From: Gammaproteobacteria bacterium
GTDB taxonomy: Bacteria; Pseudomonadota; Gammaproteobacteria; Nevskiales; Nevskiaceae
Direction: 5' to 3'
Length of the DNA: 64,000 bases
NCBI GenBank assembly: GCA_016182805.1
Contig: JACPFV010000027.1
Coordinates: 1 to 64,000, forward strand
How positions within the stretch are numbered: the stretch's first letter is position 1; each line of letters starts with the position of its first letter. The notes under the pieces were generated by a model that saw nothing but the letters and a program-made list of their open reading frames with translations, ran no database searches and was not told where the DNA came from. The position numbers and the translations under genes were made by a program. Below, one piece after another: positions 11,222-51,344 of the stretch.

Positions 11222-11235
11222 TTGACGCAGATCAA
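11222..11235 (-). promoter_or_regulatory. FNR-type box before narK1
   Basis: TTGACGCAGATCAA, a close match to TTGAT-N4-ATCAA. It is centred about 73 nt before the narK1 GTG, the same distance as at several other boxes in this window, consistent with activation of a promoter reading into the nar operon. Confidence 0.8.
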
Positions 11236-33151: not shown

Positions 33152-33165
33152 TTGATCTATATCAA
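33152..33165 (+). promoter_or_regulatory. FNR-type box 1 of a tandem pair
   Basis: TTGATCTATATCAA, perfect half-sites. It lies 23 bp before box 2, on nearly the same face of the helix (about two turns). It could also serve the divergent sirB2/ubiD genes, whose start is 147 nt away. Confidence 0.8.
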
Positions 33166-33174
33166 GAGCGGGTA

Positions 33175-33188
33175 TTGATCTACATCAA
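33175..33188 (+). promoter_or_regulatory. FNR-type box 2 and promoter of the radical SAM/ubiUVT operon
   Basis: TTGATCTACATCAA, perfect half-sites, centred 74 nt before the start at 33256. A -10-like TAAGGT (33211-33216) begins 29 nt from the centre, as at narX. Confidence 0.85.
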
Positions 33189-37218: not shown

Positions 37219-37290
37219 GTAGCGCAGCGGAATGCGGGGAATGGCCGGGGCGCCTATCCCCCGGATTCCGCCGCGCCGCCTCCGCGCTAC
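37219..37290. repeat. Inverted repeat between convergent ubiT and fnr
   Basis: GTAGCGC (37219-37225) pairs with GCGCTAC (37284-37290), and GCGGAAT (37227-37233) with ATTCCGC (37265-37271). The right arm overlaps the fnr stop codon. It sits where both convergent transcripts should end; no T-run follows, so it may be a dispersed intergenic repeat that also acts as a bidirectional terminator. Confidence 0.5.
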
Positions 37291-38048
37291 AGGTTCACCG
37301 CCGGCACGCGGCGGGCCATGTACTGCAGGCCCTGCATGTCCAGGATGCGCATCACGCGGTGCTCCAGGGCGATCAGGCCCTGCTCCTGGAACCGTGCCAG
37401 CGCGCGGCTCAGGGTCTCGCCGGCCAGACGCAGGTGGTTGGCGATATCGGCGCGCGACATCGGCAGCACCACGCGCGTGCTGAGCTGGCCGCGCGGGTGC
37501 ACCCGCATCGCGATGCCGAGCAGGAACGCCGCCAGCCGCTCCTCCGCCATGTAGTCGCCGATCGCCGCCATGCTGGTGGCGACGTCCTTGCCCATCAGCT
37601 TGAGCAGGCGCTCCATCAGCGCGGTGACGTCGTGCGCCAGCTCCAGCAGCGGCTTGTACGGTATGACGCAGACCGCGCTGTAGGTCAGCGCGATGGCACT
37701 GCACTGGTGGATGCCGGAGAAAATCCCGTCCAGGCCGAACATCTCGGTCTGCAGGTGGAAGCCGATCACCTGCTCGTAGCCGTCGCAGTCGATCGCGGTG
37801 CTCTTGAACGCGCCGGACCGTACCGCGTAGATCGCCTTGAGCGGCTCGCCGGCATGGAACAGGTACTGCTTCGACTGCATCGGCCGGCTGATGCGCATGA
37901 TCCGGTCCAGCCGCTCCGACTCCGCCGGAGAAAGCCCCAGCGGCAGGCAGAACGATCCCCGCGGGCAACGGCTGCAGCGATGATCGCCGCCCAGCGGCGC
38001 GGCCTCGGCACCGGTGTCCTCGTCCTCATCCATCACGTTCGTATTCAT
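37287..38048 (-). CDS. fnr: Oxygen-sensing regulator FNR/ANR
   Basis: 253 aa. Cysteines C25, C28 and C34 keep the FNR spacing (CX2CX5C), and C127 (SAVCVIPY) is the fourth ligand of the oxygen-labile [4Fe-4S] cluster. The recognition helix ETLSRALARF has E211, S214 and R215, the residues that read TTGAT half-sites. Start chosen at the ATG with GGAGGG 8 nt upstream. It is the likely master of the ten FNR-type boxes in this window. Confidence 0.95.
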   Translation of the reverse strand: MNTNVMDEDEDTGAEAAPLGGDHRCSRCPRGSFCLPLGLSPAESERLDRIMRISRPMQSKQYLFHAGEPLKAIYAVRSGAFKSTAIDCDGYEQVIGFHLQTEMFGLDGIFSGIHQCSAIALTYSAVCVIPYKPLLELAHDVTALMERLLKLMGKDVATSMAAIGDYMAEERLAAFLLGIAMRVHPRGQLSTRVVLPMSRADIANHLRLAGETLSRALARFQEQGLIALEHRVMRILDMQGLQYMARRVPAVNL

Positions 38049-38112
38049 CGATCGTTCCCTCCGCTTGATCGAGCGTCGCAAACAATTTCAGCGACCGCGC
38101 GCGCCCGCGCGG

Positions 38113-38607
38113 TCATTGCTCCACGTCGAGGCGCGCCGGCGGCGCGTGGCGGACCGGCCGCCGGCCGGCCGCCCGCGCCAGCCCGAGGTCGCGGCACAGC
38201 GCCGGCCCGGGGCCGCCGACCAGCTCGGCGATGGTGCAGGCGTCGAGCGCCGCCCAGAACGACTGCATGGCGCCCGCCAGCACGCCCTTCAGGCGGCAGC
38301 TCGCCGTGATCGCGCAGCCGTTGTCCGCGCCGAAGCACTCCACCAGCCGCCAGTCCGGCTCCATCGCGCGCAGCACCTCGCCGACACGGATCTCCGACGC
38401 CGGGCGCGCCAGGCTCATGCCGCCGGCCTTGCCGCGCGCGGTCTGGATCAGCCCCTGGCGGTGCATCCGGTGCGTGACCTTCATCAGATGGTTGTGCGAA
38501 ATGCCGAACGCGGCGGCGATCTCGCGGATCGTCGCCATTTCGCCCTCGCGCAGCGCCAGGAACATCAGCACGCGCAGGGAGTAGTCGGTGCAAGCGGCGA
38601 TACGCAT
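38113..38607 (-). CDS. nsrR: NO-responsive Rrf2-family repressor NsrR
   Basis: 164 aa. Winged helix opening MRIAACTDYSLRVLMFLA with ISHNHLMKVTHRM, and three cysteines C91, C98 and C104 (CX6CX5C), the spacing of Neisseria NsrR, for an NO-sensitive Fe-S cluster. It follows nnrS by 8 nt on the same strand. It is probably the repressor of nnrS and ric. An ACATGT triple repeat between those genes is a candidate operator. Confidence 0.9.
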   Translation of the reverse strand: MRIAACTDYSLRVLMFLALREGEMATIREIAAAFGISHNHLMKVTHRMHRQGLIQTARGKAGGMSLARPASEIRVGEVLRAMEPDWRLVECFGADNGCAITASCRLKGVLAGAMQSFWAALDACTIAELVGGPGPALCRDLGLARAAGRRPVRHAPPARLDVEQ

Positions 38608-38615
38608 GGCGGGCC

Positions 38616-39803
38616 CTATCCCGGCCGGCCGTCGACGCGCGGCGCCGCCAGCATGCGGCCGTAGCGCAGCAGGAACAACAGGTACGCGGCCAGCCACAGG
38701 GCGGCGGCGGCGAGCAGCCCGGCGCGCCACGGCAGGCCGTCCACGGCGACCAGCACGCGCGCCGCGGCCGCGGCCAGCACGGCGGCGAAGGCCCAGCGCA
38801 TGCCGGCCGGCAGGCGCAGCGGGCGGCCGGTGTGCGCCAGCGCCACGCGGCTCATCACGCCCAGGATCAGGCCGCCCATGGCGCCGGCACCGGCCGCGTG
38901 CACCCAGGCGGTGGGCGCGACCCAGCCGAGCGCGGACGCCGCCAGCAGCGCCAGCGCCACGGGAATCCAGGCCATCGCCAGGTGCAGGACCCACAGCAGC
39001 GGCTCGCGGCGGACGGTCCAGCCGCGCCACAGAACCAGGCGCGCCCCGCTGGCGACCGCCGCCAGCGCAGCAACCGCGGCGCGCAGCGGCGCCGGCTCCT
39101 CCAGCAGCACAGTCGCCAGCAGCACCGCCATCGCGCCGATCGTCGCGCGCTCCAGCGCCGGCACCACCCGGATGGCGTCGGCGGCGGCGCCGCCGCCGGT
39201 CATGCGCAGCCAGGCATCGGAGAAGTTGGGCGTGATGCGCCCGCCGATCACCAGCATCAGGGTCATCAGCATGAGCAGCGCGCCGTGCGCGTACGGGCCG
39301 CCCGGAGCGACGTGGAAGCCGACGTCCATCAGCCACAGCAGCGTCAGCACCGCGATCAGGATGAACTGGCGGCTCTGGCGCTCGCGCCAGATGCGCCGCC
39401 CGGCGTCCAGCGCGACCAGCGGCAGGAACGCCAGGTCGACAACGTGTACCAGCCATGCCGGCAGCGCGCCGCCGCCGAGCATGAGTAGGCGCCCGCCCAG
39501 CCACACCGCCCACAGTGCGAGCAGCGACGCGCCGTGCAGCCGGTCGGTGCGGGTCCAGTTGCATACCGCCGTGAGCAGGAACCCCGCGACCGCGGCACTG
39601 CCGAAACCGAACAGCATTTCGTGCCGGTGCCAGTACGGCGGCGCCAGCGCCAGCGGCGGCTGGCCGCCGCCGAGCAGCATCAGCAGCCACGCCGGCACCG
39701 CCAGGGCCGCCAGCAGCGCGGCGGAAAGGAAGAACACCCGGAACGGATAGGCGAACAGGCTGGACAGGCGGGGTCCCAAGGTTGGTACGGCGGCTTCCCT
39801 CAA
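38616..39803 (-). CDS. nnrS: NnrS haem-copper membrane protein, NO stress
   Basis: 395 aa with about 12 membrane segments. The NnrS family protects against nitric oxide-related iron stress. Typical blocks are YPFRVFFLSAALLA near the start, WHRHEMLFGFGSAAVAGFLLTAV and GGRITPNFSDAWLR. It appears to begin with TTG, since GGAG lies about 8 nt upstream and no ATG is near. Divergent from ric, co-directional with nsrR. Confidence 0.9.
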   Translation of the reverse strand: MREAAVPTLGPRLSSLFAYPFRVFFLSAALLAALAVPAWLLMLLGGGQPPLALAPPYWHRHEMLFGFGSAAVAGFLLTAVCNWTRTDRLHGASLLALWAVWLGGRLLMLGGGALPAWLVHVVDLAFLPLVALDAGRRIWRERQSRQFILIAVLTLLWLMDVGFHVAPGGPYAHGALLMLMTLMLVIGGRITPNFSDAWLRMTGGGAAADAIRVVPALERATIGAMAVLLATVLLEEPAPLRAAVAALAAVASGARLVLWRGWTVRREPLLWVLHLAMAWIPVALALLAASALGWVAPTAWVHAAGAGAMGGLILGVMSRVALAHTGRPLRLPAGMRWAFAAVLAAAAARVLVAVDGLPWRAGLLAAAALWLAAYLLFLLRYGRMLAAPRVDGRPG

Positions 39804-39836
39804 GCTGAATCTCCGGCGCGCGGCACGGCCGGCGCA

Positions 39837-39874
39837 AACATGTACGAGCTGAACATGTATGAGAAAAACATGTC
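39837..39874. promoter_or_regulatory. Three AACATGT repeats, candidate NsrR operator
   Basis: AACATGT occurs at 39837, 39852 and 39867, spaced exactly 15 bp. The central copy reads AACATGTAT, close to NsrR half-sites (AAnATGTAT-like). The array lies just before the nnrS start and beside an FNR-type box, with nsrR in the same operon. Assignment to NsrR is inferred. Confidence 0.55.
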
Positions 39875-39889
39875 TGGTCGCCGACCGTC

Positions 39890-39903
39890 TTGACCTAGAT
39901 CAA
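39890..39903. promoter_or_regulatory. FNR-type box between nnrS and ric
   Basis: TTGACCTAGATCAA. Its centre is 93 nt before nnrS and 103 nt before ric, so it could serve either. A -10-like TACGGT (39926-39931) is about 29 nt away on the ric side. Confidence 0.75.
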
Positions 39904-39999
39904 TACCGCGCCGGGGACCGCACGGTACGGTACCGGCCCGCCCCGCCGCGGCGCTTTGCGTCGCGCGCCGTAGGCACCCCAATCCGCCGAGACGCCCCG

Positions 40000-40761
40000 A
40001 TGACGCAACTGACGCTTCACACCACGATCACCGACATCATCGCCAGCCGCCCCAGCCTGACGCGCGTGCTGGACGAGTTGGGGCTCGACTACTGTTGCAG
40101 CGGACCGCAGACGCTGGAGCAGGCTTGCCGCCGCAAGTCGCTCGACGCCGACCGCATCCTGGCGATGCTGCACGCCGCCGCGAACGACGCGCCGGCGGCG
40201 GAGGTCGATGTCACCGATCTGTCGCTCGCCGCGCTCGCCGACCACATCGAGCGCACGCATCACGCTCCGCTCAAGCTGGAACTGCCGCGGCTGGAAGGGC
40301 TGATGTTCAAGGTTGCCGGGGCGCACGGCGGCGGCGACGCCCGGCTGCTGCAGGCGTACGCCGTGTTCCACGGCTTCGCTCACGAGTTGCTGGAGCACCT
40401 GCAGAAAGAGGAGCGCGTGCTGTTCCCGATGATCCGCGAGCTGGAGGCGGCCGACGGGGCGCCGTCGTTCCATTGCGGCCCGCTGGCCAATCCGATCGGG
40501 CGCATGCTGGCGGAACACGACAACGCCGACGCCGCGATGCGCGAGCTGCGGTCCCTGACTGACGGCTTCAAGGCGCCCGGCCATGCCTGCAATACCTACC
40601 GCGCGCTGCTGGACGGCTTGGCGCGCCTGGAACAGGACCTGGAGCGCCACACCCGCAAGGAAGCCGAGCATCTGTTCCCGCGCACGATCGAGCTGGAGCG
40701 CCGCCGCATGGAGCCCGCGGCCGGGACCTGCGGCTGCGGCGGGCGCGGTGGCTGCCGCTGA
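40000..40761 (+). CDS. ric: Di-iron protein for repair of NO-damaged Fe-S clusters
   Basis: 253 aa. N-terminal DUF542/ScdA domain with YCCSG (C32, C33), then a hemerythrin domain with His at about 84-88, 124, 128, 133 and 173 and a distal HTRKEAEHLFP. Matches YtfE/Ric/ScdA, which repairs or protects Fe-S clusters after nitric oxide. The tail is rich in Cys and Gly (CGCGGRGGC). Divergent from nnrS, overlapping the next gene by 14 nt. Confidence 0.92.
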   Translation: MTQLTLHTTITDIIASRPSLTRVLDELGLDYCCSGPQTLEQACRRKSLDADRILAMLHAAANDAPAAEVDVTDLSLAALADHIERTHHAPLKLELPRLEGLMFKVAGAHGGGDARLLQAYAVFHGFAHELLEHLQKEERVLFPMIRELEAADGAPSFHCGPLANPIGRMLAEHDNADAAMRELRSLTDGFKAPGHACNTYRALLDGLARLEQDLERHTRKEAEHLFPRTIELERRRMEPAAGTCGCGGRGGCR

Positions 40762-41125
40762 CGCAAGGAGCGGCCTGCCGCTCGTCTACGCCTGCGCCGG
40801 CTGCTCGCCGGTCGCGCGGCTGGCGTACGACCTCGCCCAGCATCTGGACCGGCGCGGCTTGGCCGAGATGTCCTGCCTGGCCGGGCTGGGGGCGGCGCTG
40901 CCGAAATTCATGAAACAGCTCGACGGCCGCGAGGCCTGGGTGATCGACGGCTGCCCGCTCGAATGCGGCAAGGCGGTGTTCGCCCGCAACGGCCGGCCGG
41001 TCGAGCACTACGTGCGGCTGGACCGCCTGGGCTTCCGCAAGCGCCAGCCGGTGGGCGCCTCGTTCGACATGGACGCGCTGGTAGCGCGCGTCGTGCCGAG
41101 CCGCGCGCCCGAAGCCGTCGGGTGA
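40748..41125 (+). CDS. DGC-domain protein, putative zinc binder
   Basis: 125 aa. YACAGCSPVARLAYDLAQHL near the start and VIDGCPLECG (C69, C73) further on are hallmarks of the DGC/putative zinc-binding family. C16, C19, C43, C69 and C73 could bind metal. It begins with GTG inside ric and its stop overlaps the next GTG (GTGA), so three genes are coupled. Similar genes are found near nitrate and NO genes; function is not known. Confidence 0.75.
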   Translation: MAAADARSGLPLVYACAGCSPVARLAYDLAQHLDRRGLAEMSCLAGLGAALPKFMKQLDGREAWVIDGCPLECGKAVFARNGRPVEHYVRLDRLGFRKRQPVGASFDMDALVARVVPSRAPEAVG

Positions 41126-43128
41126 CGCCGGTGTCGCGCCGCTACCTCGCACCTCTGTTCCTCGGCCCCTACGCCGAGAACGACGACGCCCTGGAGAAGA
41201 TCCTGGTCGAGTTCCTGCGCGACCACGTCTACTGGCGGCGCAACTTCCATCCGGAGGACCTGCCGCCGATCTCCACCTTCGCCTCGTCCTCGCCGGAGTA
41301 CCAGGCCTTCATGGCGCGCATGCGCCGCGAGCTGCACCTGCTGTCCGCGGCGCTCAAGCACTCGGTGCCGTTCTCCAGCCCGCGCTACATCGGGCACATG
41401 GCCTCCGACCTGCTGCTGCCGGGCCTGATCGCGCAGATGATGGCGCTGCCGTACAACCCCAACAACGTGGTCGACGAGGCCGCGCCGGTGACGGTGGAAC
41501 TGGAGATCGAGGCCGGCCTGCAGCTCGCGCGCATGCTCGGCTACGCCACCGACGAGCGGCGCACGCCCTGCGCGTTCGGGCACCTGACCTCCGGCGGCAG
41601 CGTCGCCAACTACGAGTCGCTGTGGCTGCTGCGCGCGGTCAAGTACTTCCCGCTGGCGGCCAAGGCGGCCGGCGCCCGCTGCGGCGACCCGTTCGAGCTG
41701 CGCGGCCGCCCGCTGGCGCAGTGGGACGACTGGTCGCTGCTGAACCTGCCGCTGGCGGAGGCGCTCGACTTCCGCGACACCTGCATGGCGCGGCTGCGCG
41801 CGATGGACGACGTGAACGCGGCCGAGCGCATCGCCGAGGCAATCGAGGCCGAGCGCATCGAGGCGCTGGGCATGGTGACGTTCTGCGCCCGCCACCCGGA
41901 CTGCCCGCCGCCGGTGGTGCTGGCGCCGGTCACGGCGCATTACTCCTGGGAAAAGGCGATGAAGCTGCTGGGCCTGGGCACGGCGCAGCTCGTGCGCGTG
42001 CCGGCGCGCGCCATGCGCATGGACCCGGCGGCGCTGGACGAGGAGCTGTCGCAGGCGAACTGGGAGCGCCGGCCGGTGCTGTGCGTGGTCGGCGTGCTGG
42101 GCACCACCGAGTTCGGCACGGTCGACCCGATCCACCGCATCGTCGCCGCGCGCGACCGCTGGCAGGCGCAGGGCCTGTCCTTCGGCATCCACGTCGACGC
42201 CGCCTGGGGCGGCTACCTGGCCAGCATTTTCCGCGACGAGGACGGCTCGTTCCTGCCGCGCGAGAAGGTGCGGCAGGGGTTCCGCCGCTTCCCCTCCCCG
42301 GACGTCTACGACGCCTTCGCCGCGCTCGGCGGCGCCGACAGCGTCACGATCGACCCGCACAAGCTGGGCTACATGCCGTACGGCGCCGGCGCGCTGGTGT
42401 GCCGCGACCACCGCGCCTTCGACTTCGTGGCGCAGGACGCGCCGTACGCCTTCTCCCGGCCGGCGGGCGAGACCGCCAACCTGCGCGTCAAGTTCCGCAC
42501 GCTGGGACGCTACATCCTGGAAGGCTCCAAGCCCGGCGCGTCGGCGGCCGCGGTCTACGTCACGCACCGCACGCTGCCGCTGGACCACCGCCACTTCGGG
42601 CGCCTGCAGGGCGAGTCGGTGGCCTCCGCCGAGGACTTCTACGAGCGCCTGCGCGCGCTCGCCGCCGGCGTCGCCGACGTGGCCAAGCTGGTGGTGCCGT
42701 TCGAGCCGGACAGCAACCTGATCTGCCTGGCGGTGAACCCCAACGGCAACGTCTCGCTGGCGCGCATGAACGAGTTCATGGAGCGCATCTACGGCCACCT
42801 GCGGGTGGACCGCGCGCAGCCGGTGCAGACGCGCCAGTTCTTCGGCTCGTCGACGAGGCTCTACCGCGGCACGCTGGGCGAGGCCGAGAGCCGCCGCATC
42901 CTGGGCGAGCTGGGCATCGACCCGGCCACCTTCCGCGACGCGCCCGGCGACGACCCCAACGCGGCCGACAGCATCCTGATCCTGCGCCACACGCTGATGA
43001 ACCCGTGGCTCGACGACGAGACCAACGGCGTCAACTACCTCGCCCTGTACTGCGACTACCTCGCGGAGCTGATCCGCGCGGAACTGCCGCCGTCGCGCGT
43101 GCAACTGCTGCGCCAGCGCAGCGCCTGA
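41122..43128 (+). CDS. PLP-dependent decarboxylase, group II
   Basis: 668 aa, longer than most group II decarboxylases but near the size of bacterial tyrosine decarboxylases. PLP Lys K414 lies in DPHKLGYMPYGAG, with HVDAAWGGY for the Asp that binds the pyridine N and HLTSGGSVANYE near the N-terminus. The substrate cannot be told; an amino acid such as tyrosine or glutamate is possible. It begins with GTG overlapping the DGC gene stop; a second GTG at 41131 is possible. Confidence 0.8.
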   Translation: MTPVSRRYLAPLFLGPYAENDDALEKILVEFLRDHVYWRRNFHPEDLPPISTFASSSPEYQAFMARMRRELHLLSAALKHSVPFSSPRYIGHMASDLLLPGLIAQMMALPYNPNNVVDEAAPVTVELEIEAGLQLARMLGYATDERRTPCAFGHLTSGGSVANYESLWLLRAVKYFPLAAKAAGARCGDPFELRGRPLAQWDDWSLLNLPLAEALDFRDTCMARLRAMDDVNAAERIAEAIEAERIEALGMVTFCARHPDCPPPVVLAPVTAHYSWEKAMKLLGLGTAQLVRVPARAMRMDPAALDEELSQANWERRPVLCVVGVLGTTEFGTVDPIHRIVAARDRWQAQGLSFGIHVDAAWGGYLASIFRDEDGSFLPREKVRQGFRRFPSPDVYDAFAALGGADSVTIDPHKLGYMPYGAGALVCRDHRAFDFVAQDAPYAFSRPAGETANLRVKFRTLGRYILEGSKPGASAAAVYVTHRTLPLDHRHFGRLQGESVASAEDFYERLRALAAGVADVAKLVVPFEPDSNLICLAVNPNGNVSLARMNEFMERIYGHLRVDRAQPVQTRQFFGSSTRLYRGTLGEAESRRILGELGIDPATFRDAPGDDPNAADSILILRHTLMNPWLDDETNGVNYLALYCDYLAELIRAELPPSRVQLLRQRSA

Positions 43129-50147: not shown

Positions 50148-50161
50148 TTGACCTAGGTCAA
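50148..50161 (+). promoter_or_regulatory. Perfectly palindromic FNR-type box
   Basis: TTGACCTAGGTCAA, a perfect 14-bp palindrome. A -10-like TTATCC (50181-50186) lies about 27-29 nt from its centre on the plus side, towards the gene at 50289, which leaves a leader of about 95 nt. The divergent FAD gene starts 153 nt away. This intergenic region (50002-50288) shows no other feature. Confidence 0.75.
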
Positions 50162-50288: not shown

Positions 50289-51344
50289 ATGAGTTCCGAT
50301 ACCGCAGTCGATCCTGCGCTCTTCACGCACTACGTACCGCTCAACGCGCTCAAGCCGGAGAGCCAGCGCGACTTGGCGAAGAAGGCGTCCATCGCCACGG
50401 CCAAGCCCGGCGACTATCTGTTCCGCATCGGCGACACCGCCAAGGCGGCGCTGTACGTGCTGTCCGGCGAGGTTGCGCTGGAGGACGCCGTCGGCAAGCC
50501 GGTGGCGCGCGTCGCCGGCGGCGACCCCAGCTCCTTTCACCGCCTGGCGCACCAGTCGCCCCGCAAGGTCGGGGCCAAGTGCCTTTCCGCCGTGCGCTAC
50601 CTGACCGTCGACTCCGGCCTGCTGGACGTGATGCTGACCTGGGACCAGACCGGCACCTTCGAAGTCGGCGAGCTGACCACGGCGCAGGACGTGGAGTCCG
50701 GCGACTGGATGACCAAGCTGCTGCAGATGCGCAGCTTCCAGATGGTGCCGCCCTCGAACCTGCAGGCGATGTTCATGCGCATGCAGGAGGTGCAGATCGA
50801 GCCCGGCCACGTGGTCGTCAAGCAGGGCGACGACGGCGACTTTTTCTACGTGGTCATGGAGGGCCGCTGCCTGGTCACGCGCGAGCAGCCCAACCAGAAG
50901 GCGGTGCGGCTGGCGGAGCTGGAGACGGGTTCCTGCTTCGGCGAGGAGGCGCTGATCTCCGACACCAAGCGCAACGCGACCGTCACCATGCTCACGCGCG
51001 GGCGCCTGATGCGCCTGTCGAAGGACGACTTCCGCCACCTGCTCAACGATCCGCTGGCGCGCAAGCTGACCTACGCGCAGGCCAAGGCGCTGGTCGAGTC
51101 CGGCAAGGCCAAGTGGCTGGACGTGCGGCTGCCGAGCGAGTTCCAGGACTACCACCTGCCCGACGCGATCAATCTGCCCCTGTACATCCTGCGCCTGAAG
51201 CTGTCGACGCTGGACCAGAAGATGACCTACATCGCCTGCTGCGACACGGGGCGCCGCAGCTCGGTGGCGGTGTTCGTGCTGACTCAGAAGGGCTACGAGG
51301 CCTACGTCCTCGACAAGGGCCTGCCGCCGCGGCAGAACGCCTGA
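50289..51344 (+). CDS. Fusion of two cyclic-nucleotide-binding domains and a rhodanese
   Basis: 351 aa. Two CRP-like beta-roll domains (about 15-125 and 145-265) are followed by a rhodanese domain (about 267-345). The second nucleotide pocket reads CFGEEALISDTKRNATV, with the Glu and Arg that hold the cyclic phosphate. The rhodanese loop is CDTGRRS with C318 as the active Cys. There is no DNA-binding helix, so this is not a transcription factor. It may couple a cyclic nucleotide to sulfur transfer. An FNR-type box lies upstream. Confidence 0.85.
   Translation: MSSDTAVDPALFTHYVPLNALKPESQRDLAKKASIATAKPGDYLFRIGDTAKAALYVLSGEVALEDAVGKPVARVAGGDPSSFHRLAHQSPRKVGAKCLSAVRYLTVDSGLLDVMLTWDQTGTFEVGELTTAQDVESGDWMTKLLQMRSFQMVPPSNLQAMFMRMQEVQIEPGHVVVKQGDDGDFFYVVMEGRCLVTREQPNQKAVRLAELETGSCFGEEALISDTKRNATVTMLTRGRLMRLSKDDFRHLLNDPLARKLTYAQAKALVESGKAKWLDVRLPSEFQDYHLPDAINLPLYILRLKLSTLDQKMTYIACCDTGRRSSVAVFVLTQKGYEAYVLDKGLPPRQNA

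Follow-up and report, generated by a model that had tools for sequence, protein, structure and literature searches.

The described systems closest to the locus analysed here are those of the repressor NsrR and of the nitric oxide (NO) defence genes under its control. Published NsrR sites follow the consensus gATGyAT-N5-ATrCATc (PMC1274295), and the operator has been described as a 23-bp element made of two 11-bp inverted repeats separated by 1 bp (PMC4432287). The ligands of the NsrR cluster are three conserved cysteines and Asp8 (PMC5411485). In the predictions made for other bacteria, nnrS and dnrN/ytfE are listed as NsrR targets, and an upstream FNR or DNR site is combined with a downstream NsrR site at enterobacterial hcp, C. 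violaceum norB, nirK and Burkholderia nnrS2 (PMC1274295). Overlapping binding has been considered outside this family; in the case of Fur, overlapping dimers were proposed as a model (PMC10415144), and further sources on the comparison systems are PMC9338935 and PMC2577008.

The locus that we compare with these systems lies in a window of 64,000 nucleotides (64 kb), the whole stretch of DNA that was analysed, from a member of the Nevskiaceae. Three copies of AACATGT, at 39837-39843, 39852-39858 and 39867-39873, follow one another there at steps of exactly 15 bp beside an FNR-type box, as an earlier sequence-only reading had stated and as the letters themselves confirm. Judged by its motif, its geometry and the genes around it, this array is very probably an NsrR operator region, composed of two overlapping 23-bp operators that have the middle half-site in common. 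The sequence, the geometry and the gene neighbours are direct observations, and the features are as follows.

37287 to 38081, minus strand: gene of an FNR-type regulator, whose best NCBIfam model is Fnr (178.7 bits, under the 228-bit cut-off).
38113 to 38607, minus strand: nsrR, gene of an Rrf2-family repressor, whose best PDB match is named NsrR (5n07, E 7.8e-24).
38616 to 39803, minus strand: nnrS (PF05940, E 2.9e-97), with a TTG start and GGAG 7 bp before it.
39837 to 39859, no strand assigned: predicted NsrR-type operator 1, AACATGTACGAGCTGAACATGTA, half-sites 1 and 2, with ATGT-N9-ACAT geometry; score 19.8 out of 23.2, the second best of the window.
39852 to 39874, no strand assigned: predicted NsrR-type operator 2, AACATGTATGAGAAAAACATGTC, half-sites 2 and 3; score 21.2 out of 23.2, the best of the window.
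39890 to 39903, no strand assigned: FNR/ANR-type box, TTGACCTAGATCAA, an exact match to TTGAY-N4-RTCAA, 16 bp beyond the last AACATGT.
40000 to 40761, plus strand: ric/ytfE, gene of a di-iron Fe-S cluster repair protein (TIGR03652, E 8.3e-58, 195.7 bits for a cut-off of 204.7; ScdA_N and Hemerythrin domains).

The sequence-only reading had noted the resemblance of the motif to NsrR half-sites, and had opposed a direct array to the inverted pair of about 23 bp that NsrR usually binds. The resemblance holds: the CATG positions in the two halves of the consensus are 15 bp apart, which is the step of the array, and the array supplies the two best-scoring NsrR-type sites of the window. The opposition is mistaken. 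Because CATG reads the same on both strands, copies that appear direct at 15-bp steps can equally be taken as inverted pairs, and a triple with such cores and such steps is therefore equivalent to two overlapping operators with copy 2 in common. Of the unusual operator that had been suggested, the direct geometry disappears; what stays out of the ordinary is the third half-site, through which two operators come to use one half, half-site 2. The 11-bp inverted repeats 1 bp apart that define the NsrR operator are present here as two overlapping and imperfect matches, both departing from the consensus at position 23, and they stand before NO-defence genes, with nnrS and nsrR on one side and ric on the other. 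The site score has a maximum of 23.2 and uses a single set of weights, chosen by hand with the published consensus and general background as guides and not fitted. The next-ranked NsrR-type sites of the 64-kb window reach 18.6 and 18.5, which is chance level, and a score of 18.5 elsewhere is therefore weak evidence. The stricter pattern ATGYA-N7-TRCAT is not matched by the array and occurs at two other places in the genome, versus one in the reversed control; no second NO gene of this 80% complete assembly could be confirmed to carry the motif.

The number of AACATGT copies is by itself unremarkable, because 30 of 100 shuffles of the window reach the three that it contains, for an expectation of 1.72. 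The significant aspect is their arrangement, every copy being inside the array. AACATGT is the sole 7-mer of the window to occur three times at period 15, and in the 2.07-Mb, 80% complete assembly ACATGT-N9-ACATGT is found only as the two overlapping registers of the array, the reversed-pattern control giving 0. Furthermore, when the 196-bp intergenic region was resampled with a Markov model, an equally spaced 7-mer triple (periods 7 to 30) appeared in 0 of 3000 resamples, and an NsrR-type palindrome equalling the best one, at 39852-39874, in 0 of 20000.

That the array precedes nnrS, with nsrR alongside, is borne out by the PF05940 and NsrR-type matches. The start of nnrS is 33 bp from the array, nsrR follows nnrS on its strand after 8 bp and would form an operon with it, and the order on the minus strand is nnrS, nsrR and the FNR-type gene. 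The nsrR product has an Rrf2 domain (E 1.9e-33), an Asp at position 8 and the cysteines 91, 98 and 104, which align with three cysteines of the NsrR of entry 5n07, a structure that we take to be that of the S. coelicolor protein; the complete ligand set of an NsrR protein is thus found. Its best NCBIfam model is NsrR (E 4.8e-37, 127.1 bits), whose equivalog cut-off of 182 is not reached, and the name is therefore used in the sense of NsrR-type, by domain, ligands and neighbours. The FNR-type regulator has Cys36, 39, 45 and 127 and an ETLSR stretch in its HTH, residues with presumed functional roles, and it is likely to read the FNR box at 39890-39903. The divergent ric/ytfE, another known NsrR target, was missing from the sequence-only reading. 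Half-site 3 is 126 bp from the ric ATG at 40000. The frame would be longer from an upstream ATG at 39859, but the family matches begin 8-10 residues past the ATG at 40000. Lying between nnrS and ric, the array is thus in the divergent promoter region of two genes that are predicted NsrR targets elsewhere. Downstream of ric, positions 40963-43128 of the window encode a pyridoxal-dependent decarboxylase whose C-terminal domain is of the tyrosine-decarboxylase type.

The FNR/ANR box has the pattern TTGAY-N4-RTCAA, and the 64 kb contain nine perfect boxes of this type versus 0.04 expected from shuffles. They lie at 11222, 11311, 13957, 17815, 26410, 33152, 33175, 39890 and 50148, among narXL-like genes, anaerobic ribonucleotide reductase, ubiV, ubiT and the NO genes, and the stretch is probably an anaerobic regulon cluster. 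At 33152-33188 two boxes 23 bp apart, TTGATCTATATCAA and TTGATCTACATCAA, are flanked on one side by a divergent SirB-family gene, itself followed by a UbiD gene, and on the other by a radical SAM tRNA-modification gene, and the box at 50148 stands in front of a protein with cyclic-nucleotide-binding and rhodanese domains (50289-51344). Read towards nnrS, the FNR box comes first, then after 16 bp the array, and then the gene. A sigma-70 promoter scan of both strands of 39780-40010 gave none at threshold; the predicted start sites are those deduced from the FNR box: a class II FNR site is centred at -41.5, and this geometry would put the nnrS start near 39855, within the array.

From these motifs and genes we infer NsrR binding, repression, the operon, the start sites and a role for the third half-site, and the model that would best explain the locus combines the repression of nnrS-nsrR by NsrR with activation by FNR. 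In the absence of NO, the [Fe-S] NsrR dimer would occupy 39852-39874, the better match, or 39837-39859, and would cover the region in which the nnrS-nsrR transcript is predicted to start, thereby blocking its transcription; nsrR would consequently be self-repressed as well. NO would damage the Fe-S cluster and cause NsrR to leave the DNA, and at low oxygen the binding of FNR to 39890-39903 would activate transcription. The repression of ric from the same predicted sites is plausible, and less clear because its start is 126 bp off, beyond the FNR box. As for the third half-site, our guess is that it offers NsrR two alternative registers on one promoter and so raises occupancy. Simultaneous occupancy by two NsrR dimers would be sterically hard, since both would read the common half-site.

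The sequence-only reading had held that the absence of the array from close relatives with the same genes would speak against it. The exact triple is indeed confined, in the relatives set of 61 genomes, to the genome under study (0 of the 60 others); on the other hand, few relatives carry the genes, and one that has nsrR, nnrS and ric (G002) keeps a single perfect 23-bp site, AACATGTATAAATCATACATGTT, 51 bp before nnrS. In the family, Rrf2/NsrR matches at 1e-12 were obtained in 32 of 58 genomes and Ric matches at 1e-10 in 7 of 58, own genome included in both counts; in the one other genome of the same genus (G001, 76% complete) an nsrR or ric match was not found. The seven other ric loci, from six family genomes, comprise three with a site of at least 20 just before ric, two with a weak one (18.5) and two with none of at least 18.5. 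An exact FNR box lies at most 50 bp from an NsrR-type site at two of eight family loci (L010 and L011) and not before the nnrS of G002; before the ric of G080, the two are 2 bp apart. A site pair of G013 (L005) scores 18.8, and genes of NsrR, NnrS, Ric and FNR are absent from the stretch around it. A third half-site (half-score of at least 9.5, 15 bp off) was found at 0 of 6 family loci. The triple is therefore not conserved in relatives, whereas the NsrR site is, and similar single sites occur in some of them before nnrS, ric or nsrR.

The site length was compared at two scales. The comparison made with the resampling run is biased, because its ten relatives were preselected for a site of at least 18.5 (L013, L040 and L044, which have none, were left out, and L038, L039 and L042 repeat other loci); the fair comparison is that of 59 loci of the class. 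NsrR matches at 1e-25 occur in 94 of 350 class genomes and NnrS matches at 1e-30 in 122 of 350; the best 30 nsrR and the best 30 nnrS loci by protein match were retained, and 59 of the 60 were scanned, own included, the own nsrR locus (L007) being omitted because L112 covers the same site. A palindrome scoring at least 20 was present at length 23, that of the NsrR operator, at 16 of the 59 loci, and at 0 or 1 for each other length from 19 to 27. Without the own locus, such length-23 sites were found at 11 of 29 nsrR loci and 4 of 29 nnrS loci, and no site of at least 20 at 18 and 25 of these best class matches, respectively. The length-23 geometry is thus that of the nsrR-linked sites of the class, with many loci having no site at all. 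By hand count, 28, 49 and 52 bp separate three of the four nnrS sites (L113, L136 and L140) from the nnrS match that follows, the matches beginning at residue 7 to 14 and the start codons being accordingly closer to the sites; the site of L114 is about 480 bp upstream of the match. The 15 other loci with a site represent fewer independent cases, because some overlap or share a genus (L092/L093 and L089/L105, for example), and a third half-site by the same definition is present at two of them, L089 and L105, of one lineage.

A stricter version of the triple was detected in 5 of 369 class-sample genomes and 3 of 398 phylum-sample genomes, own genome counted in each, and NO or FNR genes of this kind were found within about 1.5 kb of 0 of the 6 other loci. 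One of these hits, a triple looser than the exact one but of the same spacing, stands at 14454-14489 of contig C232 of G347 (L076), which also carries an nnrS about 10 kb away. A contig search with NnrS returned one locus, from Pseudomonas kuykendallii, with no site of at least 18.5. Among the genomes examined, the clean triple with a common half-site is present only in this one.

Three alternatives retain NsrR as the regulator. The first, which we regard as possible though unlikely, is that the operator at 39852-39874 does the work and that the extra half-site is the remnant, without effect, of a 15-bp tandem duplication. Copies 1 and 2 both contain AACATGTAYGAG (11 of 12 identical), as expected from such an event, to which this identity would point; a tandem duplication would preserve the register unaided, and the relatives that have a site mostly have single ones. 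However, copy 1 keeps all seven positions in spite of a window GC content of 70%, and its operator ranks second in the window. The second alternative, which seems improbable to us, is that at least two NsrR dimers assemble together on the overlapping sites and steepen the NO response. It would account for three clean cores in exact register, and CodY does bind cooperatively to overlapping sites with a common half-site (PMC10415144); but for CodY the offset is 9 bp and the dimers use the minor- versus the major-groove edge of the common half-site (PMC10415144), whereas two NsrR dimers would need the same half-site core. Moreover, the S. coelicolor protein has been described as occupying its 23-bp site in the form of a homodimer (PMC4432287), and the triple lacks conservation. 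If true, cooperative assembly over three half-sites would give an NsrR/Rrf2 repressor a binding mode that is new, and the control of nnrS, nsrR and ric by NO would become a sharp switch instead of a graded response. Harder still to credit is the binding of the half-sites singly, which the E. coli and B. subtilis NsrR proteins are reported to use in the control of many targets and for which the array offers three candidates: S. coelicolor NsrR failed to bind half-site probes (PMC4432287 for both reports), and the exact 15-bp register would be left without a reason.

To the two remaining alternatives, which dispense with NsrR, we give next to no credence. A chance or coding repeat (15 bp being 5 codons) could be invoked since a loose triple pattern occurs in 38 of 85 genomes of the order, own included, versus 9 of 85 for the reversed control, and since the window has two more 7-mer triples, one at period 21 and one at period 27. 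The loose matches are GC-rich by eye and many resemble coding repeats, their excess being taken as coding periodicity, and homologues of NsrR, NnrS, Ric and FNR (blastp, 1e-5) were found near none of the 29 loci, other than the own one, whose surroundings were compared. The array, in contrast, precedes the chosen start of either gene and sits where the GC content dips to 52%, and resampling of the intergenic region does not reproduce it. The sigma-54 activator NorR typically has three operators. Tandem NorR sites would thus suit three sites before NO genes, and NorR control of nnrS and dnrN (ric) is predicted elsewhere (PMC1274295), but they were rejected, as both strands of 39780-40009 contain no GT-N7-AC, no ATGT-N7-ACAT (the array spacing is N9) and no -24/-12 element of a sigma-54 promoter.

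The reading as two overlapping NsrR operators carries a lesson beyond this locus. Half-sites with a CATG core pass for direct repeats and yet are inverted pairs, a misreading that is easily repeated, and 15-bp 'direct' arrays near NO genes therefore deserve to be checked as NsrR operators. The layout with a common half is also a clean natural test: can a dimeric Rrf2 repressor use, or cooperate on, overlapping sites? Apart from this layout, the region is a standard NO-defence control region, a switch of known kind.

In comparison with the published NsrR operator (PMC4432287 and PMC1274295), the array has the same half-site sequence, the same 15-bp core spacing, an adjacent regulator and the targets nnrS and ric/dnrN, and differs by its three half-sites, which form two overlapping operators with one half in common. 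The tandem NsrR sites predicted at B. subtilis hmp (PMC1274295) are likewise a case of one promoter with more than one NsrR site, and Burkholderia nnrS2 (PMC1274295) has the same succession of FNR-family box, NsrR site and nnrS gene, but with a single NsrR site, as described, and with DNR replacing FNR. The CodY sites and the overlapping-dimer model of Fur (PMC10415144) have the overlap in common with the array and, in the case of CodY, also the common half-site; they belong to other protein families, have another offset (9 bp for CodY), and cooperativity has been shown for CodY. A literature search for overlapping NsrR and NsrR half-site as phrases found no paper, which is a weak absence since most subscription papers were outside the search. 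The nearest parallel to the array is genus g123 (G302, G186 and G401), which also has more than one NsrR-type site before nsrR, with a 15-bp-offset pair in G302 and G186, two genomes that hardly differ there (145 of 160 bases upstream are identical). It differs in that a 26-bp offset separates the better sites, that one core of the 15-bp register has a mismatch and that G401 is without a 15-bp pair. The sites 26 bp apart occur before nsrR in all three genomes (L089, 1992-2040; L105, 1432-1480; L142, 1432-1480), which suggests tandem autoregulatory operators. Set beside these systems, the NsrR/FNR control region is standard, and its overlapping layout is uncommon.
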